DNA of 64,000 nt. It comes from Sulfuriroseicoccus oceanibius (GTDB lineage Bacteria > Verrucomicrobiota > Verrucomicrobiia > Verrucomicrobiales > SLCJ01). Below are positions 6,063 through 18,795 of the stretch, piece after piece (position 1 is the stretch's first letter; each line of letters starts with the position of its first letter). Made by a program: the position numbers and the translations under genes. Location: assembly GCF_010681825.2 (NCBI RefSeq), contig NZ_CP066776.1:1674001-1738000 (forward strand), read 5' to 3'. Below the pieces are notes generated by a model. It was not told the origin of the DNA, did no database searches, and saw only the letters and a list, made by a program, of their open reading frames with translations.

Positions 6063-7538
6063 ATGGACGAGAACAAAACGTCACAGCAAGAGAAGAAGGA
6101 ACCTGAGGCTGCTGCGCCTCGTTCGAAACGGAAGAAGTTTTTGGTAGCAGCGCTGATTGTGGTTTTGCTGGTAGCTGCTGGTGCGGTCTACGCATTGCAA
6201 GCGGCGGTGGCCAACCTGGTGACACCGCAGAATGTGGTGCAGGAGTTGGAGAGTCGTTACAACGCGCGCGTCGAGATCGGCCAAATTGAGGTGAATGTGT
6301 TTTCCACGACGCCGGGGATCAAGGTGAGCGAGATTAAGATCGGCCACCGGGATCAGGTCGCCAACAGCGGCATGCCATTGGCGCAGCGCAGTGCGATGGC
6401 GTCCCCTGTGTTGGAATTTGAAACCGTGGAGATGGATGTTTCGCTGAGCGCGTTGCTTGCGCGTCGGGTGGAGGTACGCGAGTTGCGCTTCTTCCGCGGT
6501 TCGGTGCTCGGGCGGATGCGCTCGTCGGGCGATGTGACCTTGTCGTCGCTGGTGGAGAAGCCGCTGATTGTGAATGGCAAAGAGGTGGGCAAGTCCGAGG
6601 GGCCACAAGAGGGGACGGCTCCGGCCGGTTCTGGCGGTGGCGAGTTGCTCGAATTTTCAGGCATCAACCAGGTGGTGATCGAGGAGACGGGTGTGAGTTT
6701 GTTGATCAACGGCCGCAAGACCGAGCTCAACGTGCAGGGACTGGAACTGACGATCGGCAAGGTTGCTATGACCGACGGAGGGGTGCCCGCTGCTCAGAAA
6801 GTGCCATTGGATCTGGCAGGGAAGCTGCGCGTGATCCGCACCAAGGATTCGTTTGAACTGGCGGTCTTTGATCTGGCAGGTAAGGCGGATGTCGATCTGG
6901 CATCGGACTCGGATGGCGCTGAAGTGGCTGGTGTGGATTTGACGATGAAGATCGCGGACAGTTCGGACATTTCCGTGCTGCCATCATTGGAAAAGGCGCG
7001 CAAGAAGCTCAAGAAGCTGACTCAGGCTGGCATCACGCTCGATGAGTACTTGGCGGATTCGGTCACTTTTCCGCAAGGCGGCGTGGACCTGGTTGCCCGG
7101 ATGGAAAATGAAGTGATTCGGTTGGTTCAGCCACTCGATGCGGAGTACGGCCAGTTTGACCTCGTGGTCGCAGCCGGTGGTGAGTTGCGTTTGAGCAACG
7201 ATTCCCATCACTTTGATTTCTCGGTGATCGGGGATGATGTGGTGTCGGCAACGGCGCTGCGTCAGATCAATGAGAAGAAGGAGATGCTGCCGGCTGGTGA
7301 GTTGCGTGAGCAATTTGTGGCGGATGTGCGCGAGTCGCTGTTCAAAAGCGGGCGCCTGACACTGGATTTCGCATCAAAGGGTAAGTTGGCGGATCCGGAT
7401 GTTGATTTTACCAACGAATTGCCCGATCCGAAGGACTACCTGAAGGGACTGCTGGACCAGATCAGCAGGGATCCGAAAGCGCGCGAGAATCTTGAAAAAG
7501 CCGGAAGCGAGCTGCTTCGGGGATTGTTCAACAACTAA
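6063..7538 (+). CDS. AsmA-like single-pass membrane protein
   Basis: 491 residues from ATG 6063; the open frame reaches back to 5916 inside queE, but the translated residues there look out of place. After a charged cytoplasmic N-terminus there is one membrane helix at about residues 26-46. A long periplasmic part follows, rich in beta strands, starting 'VTPQNVVQELESRYNARVEI'. That opening and 'VSEIKIGHRD' resemble AsmA/DUF748 proteins, which are bridge-like envelope proteins implicated in lipid transport and outer-membrane assembly. Sequence similarity beyond the first 150 residues is not obvious to me. It lies between queE and UDP-glucose pyrophosphorylase, with 18 bases before the latter. 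Confidence 0.62.
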   Translation: MDENKTSQQEKKEPEAAAPRSKRKKFLVAALIVVLLVAAGAVYALQAAVANLVTPQNVVQELESRYNARVEIGQIEVNVFSTTPGIKVSEIKIGHRDQVANSGMPLAQRSAMASPVLEFETVEMDVSLSALLARRVEVRELRFFRGSVLGRMRSSGDVTLSSLVEKPLIVNGKEVGKSEGPQEGTAPAGSGGGELLEFSGINQVVIEETGVSLLINGRKTELNVQGLELTIGKVAMTDGGVPAAQKVPLDLAGKLRVIRTKDSFELAVFDLAGKADVDLASDSDGAEVAGVDLTMKIADSSDISVLPSLEKARKKLKKLTQAGITLDEYLADSVTFPQGGVDLVARMENEVIRLVQPLDAEYGQFDLVVAAGGELRLSNDSHHFDFSVIGDDVVSATALRQINEKKEMLPAGELREQFVADVRESLFKSGRLTLDFASKGKLADPDVDFTNELPDPKDYLKGLLDQISRDPKARENLEKAGSELLRGLFNN

Positions 7539-7556
7539 TCAACGATCGATCGTACC

Positions 7557-8945
7557 ATGAGTCAGCATCTAGAAGCCTTCCGCCGGAAGATGGAGCAAGC
7601 CGGGCAGTCCGAAGCCGCGATTGCACAGTTTCTCCGAGGCCTCGAATTGGTCGACCAAGGGGTGGATACCAGCATCCCGGAAGCCACGATCGAGAGTGCC
7701 CGCGATCTGCCAAAGGTGGCTGATTTGGACGTGCAAGCGGATCCCGCATTGCTGGCTCAGTCGGTCGTGATCAAGCTCAATGGAGGACTCGGCACTGGCA
7801 TGGGGCTGGCGGGGCCGAAGTCGCTGCTCGAAGTGCGGGAAGGTCAGACGTTCCTCTCACTGATCGTGCGCCAACTTGAGAAACAAGAGCAGAGCCTCGG
7901 CGCGAAAGGGCGCTTGCTGTTGATGAACAGCTTCAGCACCAGCAGCGACACCATGGACTATCTCGCAGGGATCGCCGGCGGTGAGCGTGCGGAGGAAATG
8001 CTCCAGAGCATGGTGCCAAAACGTCTGGTTGAGGGCGGCACGCCTGCAGAGTGGACGGCAGAACCATCGCTTGAATGGTGCCCTCCGGGCCACGGTGATC
8101 TGTACGCAACTCTGGTCGGTTCGGGCAAATTGCGCGAACTGCTCGACGCGGGCGTGCGCTACGCATTCGTCTCCAACTCGGACAACCTCGGCGCGACTCT
8201 TGATCCCGAGATGCTGACCTACTTCGCTCAAAGTGGGGCGCCGATGATGATGGAGGTGACGCGCCGTACTGCAGCTGACCGCAAGGGCGGCCACCTCGCC
8301 GTGCGCAAGAGCGATGGGCGATTGATCCTCCGCGAGTCAGCCCAGTGTCCTGACTCCGATGTGGATGCGTTCCAAGACATTGAGCGCCATCGTTATTTCA
8401 ACACGAACAACCTGTGGCTGCGCCTCGATGTGCTGGAGCAGGTGATGGATTCCCACGGTGGCCTTTTGCCGCTGCCGGTGATGACCAACCGGAAAACCGT
8501 GGACCCTCGCGACGCGGATTCTCCAGCGGTGATTCAATTGGAAACCGCCATGGGAGCGGCGATCGAGTGCTTCGAAGGCGCTGCGGCCATCGTGGTTGGG
8601 CGCGACCGGTTCGCTCCGGTGAAGACCACCAACGATCTGCTCGGCCTGCGGTCGGATGCCTATCGGATTGATCCGGATGGTGCCGTGCGTTTGGACCCGG
8701 CGCGTCAGGGACGCCCGCCGGTGATCGACTTGGATTCCAAGTGGTACAAACTGGTCGACGGGTTTGCCGATCGCTTCCCGGCGAAGGTGCCGTCGTTGAT
8801 CGACTGTGAGGCTTTGGTGGTGAAGGGGAACCTGCGCTTCACCGAGCCAGTGACGATTCAGGGAACGGTGACGCTGCGTGCGGCCGGTGAGGAATCGGCA
8901 GACGTGCCAGCGGGCACTTACGCGGATTGCGACCAGTTGGTTTAA
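7557..8945 (+). CDS. UTP-glucose-1-phosphate uridylyltransferase, eukaryotic-type UDPGP family
   Basis: 462 residues. Makes UDP-glucose from UTP and glucose 1-phosphate for glycan and glycogen-type pathways. The nucleotide-binding loop is 'KLNGGLGTGMG' (73-83) followed by 'GPKSLLEV'. 'SNSDNLGATLDPEML' is the metal and uridine site, 'YFNTNNLWLRLDVL' the sugar site, and 'RFAPVKTTNDLLGLRSDAY' the conserved C-terminal block. These place it in the UDPGP (UGP2-like) family, unrelated to the short bacterial GalU. A C-terminal left-handed beta-helix ('KGNLRFTEPVTIQGTVTLRA') ends the protein, as expected. Length and order match the family. Confidence 0.93.
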   Translation: MSQHLEAFRRKMEQAGQSEAAIAQFLRGLELVDQGVDTSIPEATIESARDLPKVADLDVQADPALLAQSVVIKLNGGLGTGMGLAGPKSLLEVREGQTFLSLIVRQLEKQEQSLGAKGRLLLMNSFSTSSDTMDYLAGIAGGERAEEMLQSMVPKRLVEGGTPAEWTAEPSLEWCPPGHGDLYATLVGSGKLRELLDAGVRYAFVSNSDNLGATLDPEMLTYFAQSGAPMMMEVTRRTAADRKGGHLAVRKSDGRLILRESAQCPDSDVDAFQDIERHRYFNTNNLWLRLDVLEQVMDSHGGLLPLPVMTNRKTVDPRDADSPAVIQLETAMGAAIECFEGAAAIVVGRDRFAPVKTTNDLLGLRSDAYRIDPDGAVRLDPARQGRPPVIDLDSKWYKLVDGFADRFPAKVPSLIDCEALVVKGNLRFTEPVTIQGTVTLRAAGEESADVPAGTYADCDQLV

Positions 8946-11905: not shown

Positions 11906-14425
11906 TTGTTTATGAATGTCCACAGCAGCCCCAGCTTCGATTGCTCATGCCAGCTACGGCCGATCAGGCCCCGACGGCAGCCGGTTGGGATTCTATTCGT
12001 TGGAGTGATTTGCTGGGCTAGCGGCCTGCTCGGCGGGGAGCTCCGGGCGGGCAGTGTCACAGATTGGTTGGATCAGGCGCAGGCGACTGGATCGAATGTC
12101 ACGGCGTCGATCAATGGCGGGGCGGGGTGGAGCTTCGATGGGAGCAGTGGGGGGAGCTACAATTTCGGGGCGTTGGATGCGCTGGATGGGAAGCCGGTGG
12201 ACGGCGCGACGGTGGAGTTTTTGTTCAACTTCTCGGACTTCAGTGGCTCGATGGCGATTGGCGCGGTGGGTGGGGACTCCACTGCTCGTGAGATGAATGT
12301 GTTCAAGCTGGAGCAGTGGCAGAACACGGGGAAATTCGGGATCACGCTGCCCGGTGAGGTGGATTATTCGTTGCAGGCGGATTCCGTGTTCGACCAGGAC
12401 CTGCACGTGATTTTTCGTCGGAACGACGATGAGGGAACTATCGATTTGTTTGTCAATGGAGCTTATGTCGAGACCCATGCGGACAAGGGAGATTGGCGGC
12501 TTGATGGCGGATGGGGTTACATTGGTTCTAGTTCAAGCAGCACCCAGGATGTGCCGACCGGGCGGGTTTATGGTGTCGCATCTTATGACGCTGCACTGAG
12601 CGATCAGGAGATTGCGGCGCTTTACAATGCCTACAATGGTCCGGCAGCCGACCCGCATGCGGTGGTCACACCGGCGGCGCTTGATTTCGGGGATTATGAC
12701 TCGGTGGTTGGGCCGTTGGATCTGGCGGTGACGATTGCCAACTACGGGGCGACTGAGAACTTGGAGATCAGCAGTGTGCTGGTGACAGGGGTGGATGCGG
12801 ACCATTTCAGCTTGAGCAGCTATCCGTCGAGCGTGGCCCCATCGGGCAGTGTGGAGTTGATGGTTCGGTTCAACACATCGGCAGCAGAGGGCACGGTGAG
12901 GGCGACGTTGCAGATCGAGACCAATGGGGCGAACCGTGGATCGTTTGAGATTCCTCTCACGGCTTTTGCGTTCGAGCCTCTGCCGGAGAAGGCGGCATTG
13001 TTGGTGATCAACCCGCACCCGGATGACGAGGGGCTCTTCTACGGGGGGACGCTGGCTTATTACAGTCAGGTGCGCAATTTACCGACGGTGATGATGTCGA
13101 TGACCAGCGGCGACTCCGGGATTTCTGTCAGCGACCCAGCGGACCGCTTTTTGCGGGAAGATGAAATGCGCAATGCGGCGAGAGCCTACGGGGTCAAATA
13201 CGAGCCGATCTTTGCGCGCTTCGACGATGGAGGAAGCAGCATCGAAACCTTGGAGACGTGGACTCAGTTTCCGAATACGGGCGACGATGCCGCGGATTAT
13301 TTGTCGCCGTTTACCGGTAATCCGGTGGAGTACACTGCGCGGGTGATCCGGAAGTTGCGTCCGGAGGTCTTGCTCACCAGCGACAGCGGCGGGGACTACG
13401 GGCATTTGGACCATCGGCACACTTCTGCGGCGGTGGTCGCGGCTTATGCAATGGCGGCGGATTCGAGTGTGACGATTCTGGACGACGAGGGGAATCCATT
13501 GCCGGCGTGGGCGGTGACCAAGTTCTACGTGCACGATGCGGATTTCGACGACGCGAACCATCTTGGTCATTTGTTCCACAACTATTGGGAGACGCCTTAC
13601 GATGAGCTCGGCGGCGCGACCGCACGCGAGGTGACCCAGCAGGGGCTGTTGGCGCACCAGTCTCAGAATATCGATTACGTGACGCGTACTTATTACGGTC
13701 AGGCGTATTGGGGTGGTCAGTACGAGCCGGGTGAACTTTGGAGCATGCTCGAATCGACCGTCGGACTGGATACCTTCAATGTCGGCGAGCTGAGTGATGA
13801 TCCGGATTTCGACAACTTTCCCGATATCCATCACGGGGACTTTATGGAAAACATCGACCTGTCGCTCTTCGCCGGTTATCTGGCCGATACCAACCGCGAC
13901 GGGCTGGTCGATGGCGATGACTTGACCTTGATGCTCGGCAGGCTCGGCCAGGAGGTGCCGATTGGCTCGGTGGCGAGCGGGGATGCCAATAGCGACGGGA
14001 TCGTGGACCAGCGTGATTTGGATTTGTTGCATGCGGCCAACCCGGACACCGACAATGACAAGCTGCCCGATGTGTGGGAGCTGGCACACTTCAGTGGGGT
14101 TGCCGCTGCGGATCCGGCCGCCGATGACGATGGCGACGGGGTCAGTGTGGGGGACGAATATGTGGCGGGGCTCGACCCAGCGGTGGCTGATCGGATTGAG
14201 TTTTCGATCGGTGACGCACCAAGGGCGGTCTATTTCACCGTGCCAGCGGCTGGCGGTACCGGTTATGCCGGGCTGACGAGACGCTATCAGTTGCTCTATT
14301 CGCCCGACTTGGTCGATTGGAGCACCGTCGTGCGCGAGGGCGTGGCCGATGGGGCCTTGCAAAGCGAGAGCATTCCTGAAGATCAGCCTCATGGGTTCTA
14401 CAAGCTCGACTTGATTGTCGAGTGA
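11906..14425 (+). CDS. Secreted multidomain PIG-L (GlcNAc-type) deacetylase with lectin-like and calcium-binding modules
   Basis: 839 residues. A basic N-terminus and hydrophobic segment at about 25-44 serve as export signal. Residues 50-245 resemble a LamG/concanavalin domain ('LHVIFRRNDDEGTIDLFVNG', 'SDQEIAALYNAY'). Residues 250-355 resemble an ASPM-SPD-2-Hydin immunoglobulin-like repeat. A PIG-L deacetylase follows, with the zinc motif 'NPHPDDEG' (371-375) and a distal 'GHLDHRHTS'. This family removes N-acetyl groups from sugars. About residues 650-725 carry EF-hand-like dockerin and thrombospondin-3 repeats ('DTNRDGLVDGDDL', 'DANSDGIVDQRDL', 'DDDGDGVSVGDEY'). It is likely secreted and acts on a polysaccharide; the substrate is unknown. 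Confidence 0.82.
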   Translation: MFMNVHSSPSFDCSCQLRPIRPRRQPVGILFVGVICWASGLLGGELRAGSVTDWLDQAQATGSNVTASINGGAGWSFDGSSGGSYNFGALDALDGKPVDGATVEFLFNFSDFSGSMAIGAVGGDSTAREMNVFKLEQWQNTGKFGITLPGEVDYSLQADSVFDQDLHVIFRRNDDEGTIDLFVNGAYVETHADKGDWRLDGGWGYIGSSSSSTQDVPTGRVYGVASYDAALSDQEIAALYNAYNGPAADPHAVVTPAALDFGDYDSVVGPLDLAVTIANYGATENLEISSVLVTGVDADHFSLSSYPSSVAPSGSVELMVRFNTSAAEGTVRATLQIETNGANRGSFEIPLTAFAFEPLPEKAALLVINPHPDDEGLFYGGTLAYYSQVRNLPTVMMSMTSGDSGISVSDPADRFLREDEMRNAARAYGVKYEPIFARFDDGGSSIETLETWTQFPNTGDDAADYLSPFTGNPVEYTARVIRKLRPEVLLTSDSGGDYGHLDHRHTSAAVVAAYAMAADSSVTILDDEGNPLPAWAVTKFYVHDADFDDANHLGHLFHNYWETPYDELGGATAREVTQQGLLAHQSQNIDYVTRTYYGQAYWGGQYEPGELWSMLESTVGLDTFNVGELSDDPDFDNFPDIHHGDFMENIDLSLFAGYLADTNRDGLVDGDDLTLMLGRLGQEVPIGSVASGDANSDGIVDQRDLDLLHAANPDTDNDKLPDVWELAHFSGVAAADPAADDDGDGVSVGDEYVAGLDPAVADRIEFSIGDAPRAVYFTVPAAGGTGYAGLTRRYQLLYSPDLVDWSTVVREGVADGALQSESIPEDQPHGFYKLDLIVE

Positions 14426-14505
14426 TGGGCGGCGTCTGTGGTTGAGACGACGATCCATTGGAATTCCCGATTGCGTTGTGGGCGGGCGTGGGGATGATGG
14501 AGGCG

Positions 14506-16212
14506 ATGACGACAACGACTGACATTGGAATCTCTGGAATCGGGATGTGGAGTGCCCTGGGCAAGGGATGGGAGGCAACCCGTGAGTCGTTGATCGCGCG
14601 GCGCAATGCGTTCGTACCGCTCGGTGAGTCGCCGATGATGACGGATAAATTGGAGGCCTACCGTGAGTTGCCGCTCGCGTTGTTGGCCGGGCGAGGGACT
14701 TTGAAGCGCCGGATGTTCGGAGTGACCACCGCGTTGGCCATGGATGTCGCGCAGATGGCGCTGGAGGATGCCGGCGTGCGCAAGGGGGATGATTTGTCCG
14801 ACATGGGCGTGGTGGTAGGCAGCAGCCGGGGGAACATAGGCGGGTGGTTGACGCCGCTGCCGGGGCGCCGACCGGTTGGGATTCTAGAGGCGACCAACTC
14901 GATGCACAGTGAGATCGCGGCGGCGGTGACGATCGAGTGGGGGATCCGCGGACCGTATCATGTGCTGGCCAATGGGTGTTCGGCCGGGTTGGCTGCGGTG
15001 GACATGGCTCGGATGATGATTCATTTCGGCCAAGTGCGACGTGTGTTGGTGATCGGTGTGGATTTGCCGGTCTCACCGGAGTTGCTCGAAGCCTATGCGG
15101 CGACGGACATGTTGTCGCGCAATGGAGTGAATGACCCGTATGATTCGCGTTCGGCCGGCTTCTTGCCTGGCGAGGCGGGGGCGGCGATGGTTTTTGAAGC
15201 GGTGGACGATGCATGTGCCGACGAGGCGCAGACGTGGCCGAGGTTGCTCGGATGTTGGACAAACTCGGATGCCGCACATCTGCTGGGCGTGCCGGATGGC
15301 GGTCCCGGTGTGAGGGATCTGGTCGACCGCATGCGCAACGACCTGGACGGAAGGTCGCTGCGTGCGATTTGTCCGCACGCCAGCGGGACGGAGGTGCATG
15401 GCCGGGCCGAAGCCGATGCCTTGCGCACTGCGCTGGTCGACTGGCCGGCGGGTGATGTGCTGCCGTCGCTCCATGTGATGAAGCCGTACACCGGGCACTC
15501 CATGGGAGCGAGTGGGGCGTTTGATCTGGCGGTGCTGGCGGTCTGCGGACGCGAAGGGTGGCTGCCGCCGAACCTTCCGGGGCTGTGTGGAATTGGTGCC
15601 AGCGCCCGTGTGCCGGAAGCGGTGGAAGCGGTCGATTCTGGTGAGGTGCTGGTGAAAATTGCCTCGGGCATGGGGGGGCAGAATGTGGTCGTGGCGCTCG
15701 AGGTGCCGGCTTTGGTTTCCACGGCGGATGACGTGCAGCGTGAGCATGCCGGTGCCGCGGATGAATTGGTGGTCGATGTGGCGTCGCAGACGATGGATGT
15801 GTTTGCCGCTGGTGTTTGTGTGCGCCGGTATCCGGTGTCGACCGCCCGCAATGGCGTGGGATTTGCCGAAGGAAGTTACCAGACGCCGACGGGGAATTTT
15901 GAGATCTCCGAAGTGTTCGGGGCGGATGCTCCATTGGATACCGTGTTCCAAGGCCGCGTGCCGGTGGGACATGTGGGCGATGACGCGTTCGACGCTGATG
16001 CCGATTTGGTGGTGGCGCGCATCCTTTGGTTGGCGGGGCTGGATGAGGAGAACGCGAACAGCAAAGAGCGCTACATTTACATTCACGGGACCAACCACGA
16101 GGAGCTGATCGGAGAACCGGCGAGCTGCGGCTGTGTGCGGATGCGTAATGCCGACGTGGCCGAGTTGTTTGAGATGGTCGGACCGGGCACGCCGGTGCGG
16201 ATCGTGGGGTAG
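14506..16212 (+). CDS. Fusion: beta-ketoacyl synthase plus L,D-transpeptidase
   Basis: 568 residues from ATG 14506; the frame opens upstream at TTG 14458 and ATG 14494. Residues 1-405 form a KAS with an intact Cys-His-His set: 'NGCSAGLAAVD' (Cys 158), 'CPHASGTEVHG' (His 291) and 'KPYTGHSMGASGA' (His 331). Residues 420-568 form a YkuD L,D-transpeptidase: 'YPVSTARNGVGFAEGSYQTP', 'RYIYIHGTNHEELIG' (His 527) and 'PASCGCVRM' (catalytic Cys 543). The usual SHGC reads SCGC (Cys 541). KAS enzymes work in the cytoplasm and L,D-transpeptidases on peptidoglycan outside it, yet no signal peptide or membrane helix is seen at the N-terminus or in the linker. There is no frameshift at the junction. The joint function is unknown. 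It lies 80 bases after the deacetylase gene. Confidence 0.88.
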   Translation: MTTTTDIGISGIGMWSALGKGWEATRESLIARRNAFVPLGESPMMTDKLEAYRELPLALLAGRGTLKRRMFGVTTALAMDVAQMALEDAGVRKGDDLSDMGVVVGSSRGNIGGWLTPLPGRRPVGILEATNSMHSEIAAAVTIEWGIRGPYHVLANGCSAGLAAVDMARMMIHFGQVRRVLVIGVDLPVSPELLEAYAATDMLSRNGVNDPYDSRSAGFLPGEAGAAMVFEAVDDACADEAQTWPRLLGCWTNSDAAHLLGVPDGGPGVRDLVDRMRNDLDGRSLRAICPHASGTEVHGRAEADALRTALVDWPAGDVLPSLHVMKPYTGHSMGASGAFDLAVLAVCGREGWLPPNLPGLCGIGASARVPEAVEAVDSGEVLVKIASGMGGQNVVVALEVPALVSTADDVQREHAGAADELVVDVASQTMDVFAAGVCVRRYPVSTARNGVGFAEGSYQTPTGNFEISEVFGADAPLDTVFQGRVPVGHVGDDAFDADADLVVARILWLAGLDEENANSKERYIYIHGTNHEELIGEPASCGCVRMRNADVAELFEMVGPGTPVRIVG

Positions 16213-16247
16213 TAGGGCGGCCGAGGGCCTGCGCGAGGAGCGTGTGT

Positions 16248-16277
16248 GGGAGTGCAGCGAGAATCGCTGCTTTGTAT
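16248..16277 (+). repeat. Dispersed 30-bp hairpin repeat, copy 1
   Basis: It contains GCAGCGA-GAA-TCGCTGC, a perfect 7-bp hairpin, and ends CTTTGTAT. Copies with one or no change lie at 18317-18346 and 35447-35476, all in intergenic DNA and in the same orientation. This one sits between the fusion gene and metF. Confidence 0.85.
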
Positions 16278-16445
16278 CGACGAGCAATCCTGGGAGCGCC
16301 CATCAAGCGTGCGGGGCTTGGCATTCCTTGGGAGTGGCGATCCTTGCGGCACCTCGCAAAGCTGTCCGATACCCGGTGTGGATCGTGGGCCATTCGGGTG
16401 AATCCGCCTTGATTTCGGCGTTAGTCCCAGCCATGGGTATGAGCG

Positions 16446-17381
16446 ATGCATATCAGCGACATTTTGTCCGAAGGACGCCCAAGCTTTTCCTTTGAGTTTT
16501 TCCCACCCGGCACGCCGGAGGCGCTTGAGCGCCTGTACACCACGATGCGTGAGTTGGAGGAACTCAATCCGGCATTTGTCAGCGTGACCTACGGCGCGGG
16601 TGGCAGCACACGCGAGCTCACTCACGAGTTGGTCGTGCGCCTGAAAGAAACCACGACGCTGGATCCGATCCCACACCTGACCTGCGTCTGCCACAGCGAG
16701 GAGGAAATCTCGTCGATCGTTGAGAACTACGCCAAGGCCGGTGTCAGCAATCTGCTCGCGCTCGGCGGAGATCCGCCGCGTAGCATGCCGAACTACGATC
16801 GCTCGCAGGATGCCTTCCGCTATGCATCGGATCTGGTGAAGTTCATCCGTGAACGCGAGCAGAGCGGCGCGCTGGTGGCCAATGGCGGCCGTGGGTTTGG
16901 GATCGGCGTGGCAGGATTCCCTGAGGGCCACCCGGCTACTCCGAACCGCTTGCTGGAGATGGACTATCTGAAAGCCAAGGTGGATGCCGGCGCGGATTAC
17001 ATCTGCACCCAGTTGTTCTTCGACAACCACGCCTTCCTCGACTTCCGCGATCGCTGCCGTTTGGCTGGGATCAATGTGCCGATCATTGCCGGGATTATGC
17101 CGGTGACGGCTCTGGGCGGGATGCGTCGTATGGCCGAGCTTTCGGGCGGGACATGTTTCCCTGCCAAGTTGCTCAAGGCATTGGCACGCGGTGGCGATGA
17201 TCCGGAGGCGATTCGCCGCATCGGCGTGCATTACGCGACCCAGCAGTGCGCGGATTTGCTAGACAATGATGTGGATGGAATTCACTTCTACACGCTCAAC
17301 CGCAGCGACGCGACGCGCGAGATCTACCGTAGCCTCGGTATTGATTCTTCTGTTGCAGCACCTGCTGGTGATGGCATTTAA
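16446..17381 (+). CDS. metF: Methylenetetrahydrofolate reductase
   Basis: 311 residues. Reduces 5,10-methylene-THF to 5-methyl-THF with FAD, supplying methionine synthesis. The N-terminus 'SFEFFPPGTPEALERLYTT' holds the conserved catalytic glutamate; 'SVTYGAGGSTRELT' and 'HLTCVCHSEEEI' line the barrel; 'LLALGGDPP' is the FAD/folate aspartate motif; 'GADYICTQLFFDNHAF' and 'PIIAGIMPV' complete the TIM barrel. Length matches bacterial MetF. It is followed 26 bases later by a FAH-family hydrolase, possibly in one transcript. Confidence 0.96.
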   Translation: MHISDILSEGRPSFSFEFFPPGTPEALERLYTTMRELEELNPAFVSVTYGAGGSTRELTHELVVRLKETTTLDPIPHLTCVCHSEEEISSIVENYAKAGVSNLLALGGDPPRSMPNYDRSQDAFRYASDLVKFIREREQSGALVANGGRGFGIGVAGFPEGHPATPNRLLEMDYLKAKVDAGADYICTQLFFDNHAFLDFRDRCRLAGINVPIIAGIMPVTALGGMRRMAELSGGTCFPAKLLKALARGGDDPEAIRRIGVHYATQQCADLLDNDVDGIHFYTLNRSDATREIYRSLGIDSSVAAPAGDGI

Positions 17382-18277: not shown

Positions 18278-18316
18278 GTAGGGTGGTTAGGTGGCGTCGA
18301 CGAGTGAGGGGCGTCT

Positions 18317-18346
18317 GGGAGTGCTGCGAGAATCGCTGCTTTGTAT
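18317..18346 (+). repeat. Dispersed 30-bp hairpin repeat, copy 2
   Basis: One base differs from copies 1 and 3 (GTGCTGCGAG for GTGCAGCGAG), so the hairpin GCTGCGA-GAA-TCGCTGC carries one mismatch. Confidence 0.85.
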
Positions 18347-18437
18347 GGACGGGCGGCGATGGGATACGTGGAGCGTTCGAGATACTGCGAGGTGTGGCTC
18401 CAGCTTCCCGCACCCTTTCGGGGAGAAGAAGCGGTCG

Positions 18438-18795
18438 CCACGCTGGTCGACGAGGACGTCGAGCCTCCGTGTGGCGATGTCAGATAGTGCGGCGATGGAG
18501 TGACGGTGTCCTCACCGTCGTGGGGAGCTCCGCCCACAGTGAGTGGAAAGCGAGCGATCACCACGCTGGTCGACGAGGACGTTGAGCCTTCATTTGGCGA
18601 TGCCGGGTTGTGCGGCGGATGGAGTGACGGTGTCCTCACCGTCGTGGGGAGCTCCGCCCACAGTGAGTGGAAAGCGAGCGATCACCACGCTGGTCGACGA
18701 GGACGTCGAGCCTCCATGTGGCGATGTAAGGTTGTGCGGTGCATGGAGTGACGGTGTCCTCACCGTCGTGGGGAGCGCCCAAGCTGAGTGGAAGC
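18438..18795. repeat. 123-124 bp tandem repeat, nearly three copies
   Basis: Units begin with CCACGCTGGTCGACGAGG at 18438, 18561 and 18685, so the periods are 123 and 124 bases; the third copy is truncated near 18795. Each contains two hairpins: TCGACG-AGGA-CGTCGA and GACGGTG-TCCT-CACCGTC. In the second unit the change CGTCGA to CGTTGA weakens the first stem, while the second hairpin is kept perfectly in all three. Short open frames cross the array in several phases, which argues against coding. It fills most of the 586-base gap between the FAH gene and mfd. Confidence 0.92.

Follow-up and report, generated by a model that had tools for sequence, protein, structure and literature searches.

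A 64,000-nucleotide stretch of the Sulfuriroseicoccus oceanibius genome (contig NZ_CP066776.1, positions 1,674,001 to 1,738,000; hereafter the window) contains an open reading frame in which a ketosynthase (KAS) runs directly into a YkuD-family domain. This raises the questions of whether the fusion is genuine, on which side of the membrane its YkuD half acts, and what a ketosynthase might contribute to the same protein.

The fusion gene and its origin

The open frame spans 14458–16212 on the forward strand, and from the ATG at 14506, directly downstream of a GGAGG-like stretch, it encodes 568 residues without interruption (Table 1). Three Pfam domains match above their cut-offs, ketoacyl-synt (residues 6–235, 7.5e-28), Ketoacyl-synt_C (residues 248–357, 1.3e-9) and YkuD (residues 420–566, 3.2e-20), and an AlphaFold2 model built from a 55-row alignment has both domains folded (mean pLDDT 90.7, pTM 0.78). 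The window's genome (G000) is a single 3.5-Mb contig, and another species of the genus, Verrucomicrobiales bacterium LH_M34 (G001; 59% identity), carries the same in-frame fusion, followed there too by methylenetetrahydrofolate reductase (MTHFR) and FAH-family genes. The one-frame fusion of the original prediction is thus genuine, and Cys158, His291, His331, His527 and Cys543 all lie where that prediction had placed them. Both halves are under purifying selection, with dN/dS values between the two genomes of about 0.36/1.88 (~0.19) for the KAS half and 0.26/1.77 (~0.15) for the YkuD half.

Table 1. Coordinates of the fusion gene, its domains and key codons, and two other genes of the window.
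Feature	Coordinates	Strand	Remarks
568-aa fusion protein, ketosynthase + leaderless ElsL-like YkuD	14506..16212	+	Stop codon included; conserved in G001
FabF-like ketosynthase domain, residues 6–400	14521..15705	+	PF00109/PF02801; AF2, Foldseek
Arg108	14827..14829	+	Aligned with FabF acyl-pocket gate Ile108; Arg in 67/67 family members
Cys158	14977..14979	+	KAS nucleophile
His291	15376..15378	+	KAS catalytic His
Lys326	15481..15483	+	Conserved KAS active-site Lys
His331	15496..15498	+	KAS catalytic His
Linker, residues 401–418	15706..15759	+	Short, variable; 31% identity between both fusions
YkuD domain, residues 419–568	15760..16209	+	Leaderless ElsL-like clade
His527	16084..16086	+	In HGTN motif
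Cys543	16132..16134	+	YkuD nucleophile (S-C-G-C-V-R)
MTHFR	16446..17381	+	Same neighbor in G001; outside the system
Ordinary FabF of the genome	50377..51666	+	Comparison for the divergent KAS half

No further KAS–YkuD fusion was found among 387 genomes of the order or 388 genomes of the phylum; in G002, from the same family, the KAS gene runs off the contig end. Four candidate full-length fusions (G249, G143, G329 and G334) were rejected, each being two genes read through a stop. As the original prediction supposed, the openly accessible literature yields no report of an enzyme with this pairing, subscription papers lying outside the search, and the architecture is apparently new and the pairing undescribed, although the kinds of domain are known.

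The fusion derives from an adjacent KAS–YkuD operon pair that has merged. Rubritalea and related Akkermansiaceae, the sister groups, have two separate genes on the same strand a few bases apart, with the KAS stop followed by the ATG of a 148–152-aa YkuD protein. A scan of the genome collection finds YkuD directly downstream of KAS on the same strand, or fused to it, at 22 of 69 KAS loci, and clades that surround the fusion on the KAS tree are among those with adjacent pairs. That tree unites in one group (89/64, inner fork 90/90) the fused pair, the bioB-KAS-YkuD and KAS-YkuD-SerB arrangements, and the KAS-bioF arrangement of Akkermansia; the Prosthecobacter-type KAS branches apart from it. 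By inference, the simplest reading is an ancestral KAS–YkuD operon whose genes merged a single time in this genus and became dispersed in Akkermansia.

Upstream of the fusion gene (11906–14425) is a gene for a protein with PIG-L deacetylase and LamG domains and a sub-threshold dockerin-like match. A 42-nt element occurs twice at 90% identity, directly 3' of the fusion gene (16244–16285) and at 18313–18354, and the intergenic region 3' of the FAH-family gene (18371–18779) holds three tandem units of ~124 nt (61–94% identity) plus a partial copy. A defence-system search returned no match.

The leaderless YkuD half

The original prediction took the second half for a transpeptidase facing a topology problem, a difficulty that falls away. 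The fusion does lack a signal peptide and a membrane helix, the strongest 19-residue window having a mean hydropathy of 1.54, short of membrane-helix strength, but the N-termini of the separate YkuD relatives lack them as well, and leaderlessness proves to be common to a whole ElsL-related clade. In a tree of 52 YkuD domains, a 100/100 branch splits 15 exported lipobox lipoproteins from 37 leaderless domains, and that of the fusion falls within the latter; the export signal of exported L,D-transpeptidases is absent from the fusion and from the leaderless clade. Relatives with separate genes for the two domains, which the prediction had envisaged together with an export signal on the second gene, do exist, but the signal is not there. 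The exported lipoproteins of the Verrucomicrobiales, one of which is encoded as a paralogue in the window's genome, share with the YkuD half of the fusion the YkuD fold, the catalytic motif and about 40–46% identity; they differ in having a signal peptide with a lipobox and, in most cases, HGT[P/A] instead of HGTN. The catalytic His and Cys are invariant in a 31-row alignment, and a further cysteine, Cys541, stands two residues ahead of Cys543.

The best NCBIfam match of this half is ElsL (NF040925; 7e-31). Its score of 107 bits falls far short of the cut-off of 270, which none of 57 relatives reaches, and exported paralogues score as highly on the model, so we refer to this half as ElsL-like and do not file it as ElsL. 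ElsL of Acinetobacter baumannii has been shown to be a cytoplasmic YkuD-family L,D-carboxypeptidase of peptidoglycan recycling, with orthologues reported in all orders of the Verrucomicrobia, Akkermansia muciniphila included (PMC8649774). The orthologue survey dropped proteins longer than 200 aa and was therefore blind to fusions (PMC8649774). The domain described here resembles ElsL in being leaderless with a catalytic Cys, and its host genome resembles an ElsL setting in that a search finds no S66 LdcA and Mpl is present above cut-off; it differs in its fusion to a ketosynthase, in its score, and in that AmpG was sought in the genome and not found. Import would thus need another transporter, and AmpG-independent import is reported from Agrobacterium (PMC9790009).

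Among solved structures the closest folds are those of L,D-transpeptidases, YkuD of B. subtilis (Z 17.6) being one of them. A carboxypeptidase activity is likely, although neither sequence nor fold comparison separates carboxypeptidases from transpeptidases. An ElsL-type enzyme is recognized by its cleavage of D-Ala from the murotetrapeptide and not from the pentapeptide.

The leaderless clade is fused to a second kind of partner, a SerB-like HAD phosphatase, at nine loci of a Luteolibacter/Haloferula-type lineage. Two independent fusions to cytoplasmic types of enzyme are good evidence for cytoplasmic action of the clade, and the YkuD half of the fusion is most likely cytoplasmic. The YkuD–SerB-like genes lie directly 3' of KAS (L052 at 6493–8049 on the reverse strand, L081, L082, L084, L102, L107, L117, L118 and L120), and the L052 protein has an additional Lys-rich C-terminal tail.

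The ketosynthase half and biotin genes

A Foldseek search with the AlphaFold2 model of the KAS half returns FabF (4jrh, E 8.8e-30) as its top match. It shares with FabF (beta-ketoacyl-ACP synthase II) the fold and the Cys-His-His-Lys active site, yet is only about 21–22% identical to solved FabFs by structure alignment, and scores 100.6 bits on the fabF model, far below the cut-off of 493.75. All 67 members of the KAS family retain Cys158, His291, Lys326 and His331, so the KAS half is expected to be active. The gate residues of FabF include Ile108 and a GFGG gating loop (PMC7138838); in the KAS family Arg stands for Ile108 and GMGG for GFGG, and Asn131, His134 and Glu136 are each fixed in all 67 members. 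These substitutions suggest a pocket that would accept a charged chain, probably one with a carboxylate. Nearly all members of the family come from the Verrucomicrobiales; two MAGs labelled Armatimonadota (L064 and L065) carry a verrucomicrobial KAS lacking a YkuD gene, reflecting either transfer or contamination.

Several members of the family lie beside biotin genes. The KAS gene immediately precedes bioF in Akkermansia and comes straight after bioB in Rubritalea and relatives; bioB is adjacent on the same strand at 14 of the 69 KAS loci. Among Akkermansia-like genomes BioC occurs in 0 of 14 with KAS and in 17 of 30 without it; this exclusion (Fisher p = 1.7e-5 among the 38 such genomes with bioB) may reflect only one or two evolutionary events. 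The distribution is a replacement pattern, and in the KAS-less Akkermansia-like genomes that were checked bioC lies beside bioF (with bioG too in L146). In Akkermansia and relatives the family appears to replace BioC/BioG. Neither KAS nor BioC is present in seven Akkermansia-like genomes that have bioB, and many KAS-less lineages and genera have bioB and lack BioC, so alternatives other than KAS exist. The simple co-occurrence of bioB with KAS was dropped as evidence, bioB being nearly universal. The fusion itself has no bio gene next to it, no biotin cluster is found in bioF neighborhoods outside Akkermansia, and the openly accessible literature (subscription papers again outside the search) gave no report of a pimelate route in Akkermansia.

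The biotin pathway of alpha-proteobacteria also has a ketosynthase, BioZ, which is a KAS III enzyme (PMC7645780, PMC8024396). In both cases the proposal is that a ketosynthase provides the pimelate moiety independently of BioC–BioH; the KAS half described here is of the KAS I/II (FabF-like) type by Pfam and best structures, and any shared role would therefore be convergent. The chance that the KAS half has a dicarboxylic or pimelate role is about even.

Not all members of the family have biotin genes as neighbors. The Prosthecobacter KAS adjoins glcD/pyrR instead, following a glycolate-oxidase GlcD-like gene at L091, L092, L095, L096, L098, L100, L101, L105, L110 and L112, with pyrR and pyrB after it at L092. 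Directly 5' of bioB in Rubritalea and relatives is a conserved gene of ~230 aa with an apparent signal sequence and no Pfam or NCBIfam match (L040 6688–7494, L041 6944–7627, L044 10513–11205).

Possible functions of the fusion protein

We consider it reasonably probable that the protein is a bifunctional cytoplasmic enzyme assembled from two neighboring genes, one for an ElsL-like YkuD protein and the other for a KAS serving synthesis of a dicarboxylic biotin precursor. The YkuD half would act on murein tetrapeptides, either imported or cytosolic, and strip their terminal D-Ala, presumably through an acyl-enzyme on Cys543 that is then resolved by water, and the resulting tripeptide would be reused by Mpl. 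More tentatively, the KAS half may condense malonyl-ACP with an acyl chain whose free carboxylate is held by Arg108, yielding a C7 dicarboxylic biotin precursor where BioC and BioG/BioH are missing. Fusion may do no more than lock an old operon pair into fixed expression and stoichiometry, and direct cooperation of the two halves is unlikely. A single pathway, in which a C7 dicarboxylic acyl chain made by the KAS is released or transferred by the YkuD domain, seems very improbable to us; the usual acyl-enzyme of a YkuD domain is a diaminopimeloyl thioester. Were it true, it would constitute an undescribed pimelate route and would physically connect biotin synthesis with cell-wall recycling.

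The alternative with the best claim, which we nevertheless think doubtful, is that two unrelated enzymes were joined by chance and that the KAS half is unconnected with biotin, serving a different acyl product. The variety of KAS neighbors (bioB, bioF, YkuD–SerB, glcD, pyrR) and the ability of KAS-less lineages to manage without BioC speak for it, but the clade to which the fused KAS belongs contains two independent biotin-gene contexts, no Akkermansia-like genome combines KAS with BioC, and the acyl gate is occupied by Arg108 without exception. There is only a slight probability that the YkuD half functions as a genuine L,D-transpeptidase, reaching the periplasm by an internal start or non-classical export, as its Pfam family and nearest folds would allow, since all 37 clade members are leaderless and the lipobox paralogues form their own clade. 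The internal start near 15750 that was originally suggested is not conserved, an ATG being present in the linker of G001 and none in that of the window, and its product would also be leaderless. The original prediction had further named an error joining two genes as what might overturn it, and neighboring families do encode two genes a few bases apart; the independent G001 genome, with the same in-frame fusion, low dN/dS and the same downstream genes, excludes a sequencing error, and a misjoined sequence or assembly has next to no probability.

The joining of ElsL-type YkuD domains to cytoplasmic enzymes on two separate occasions is good genomic evidence that this whole clade acts inside the cell. 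Through the KAS family, the early biotin-synthesis step that is missing in Akkermansia and relatives becomes directly testable, and the fusion indicates a so far unexplored route to a vitamin precursor among relatives of this gut bacterium.
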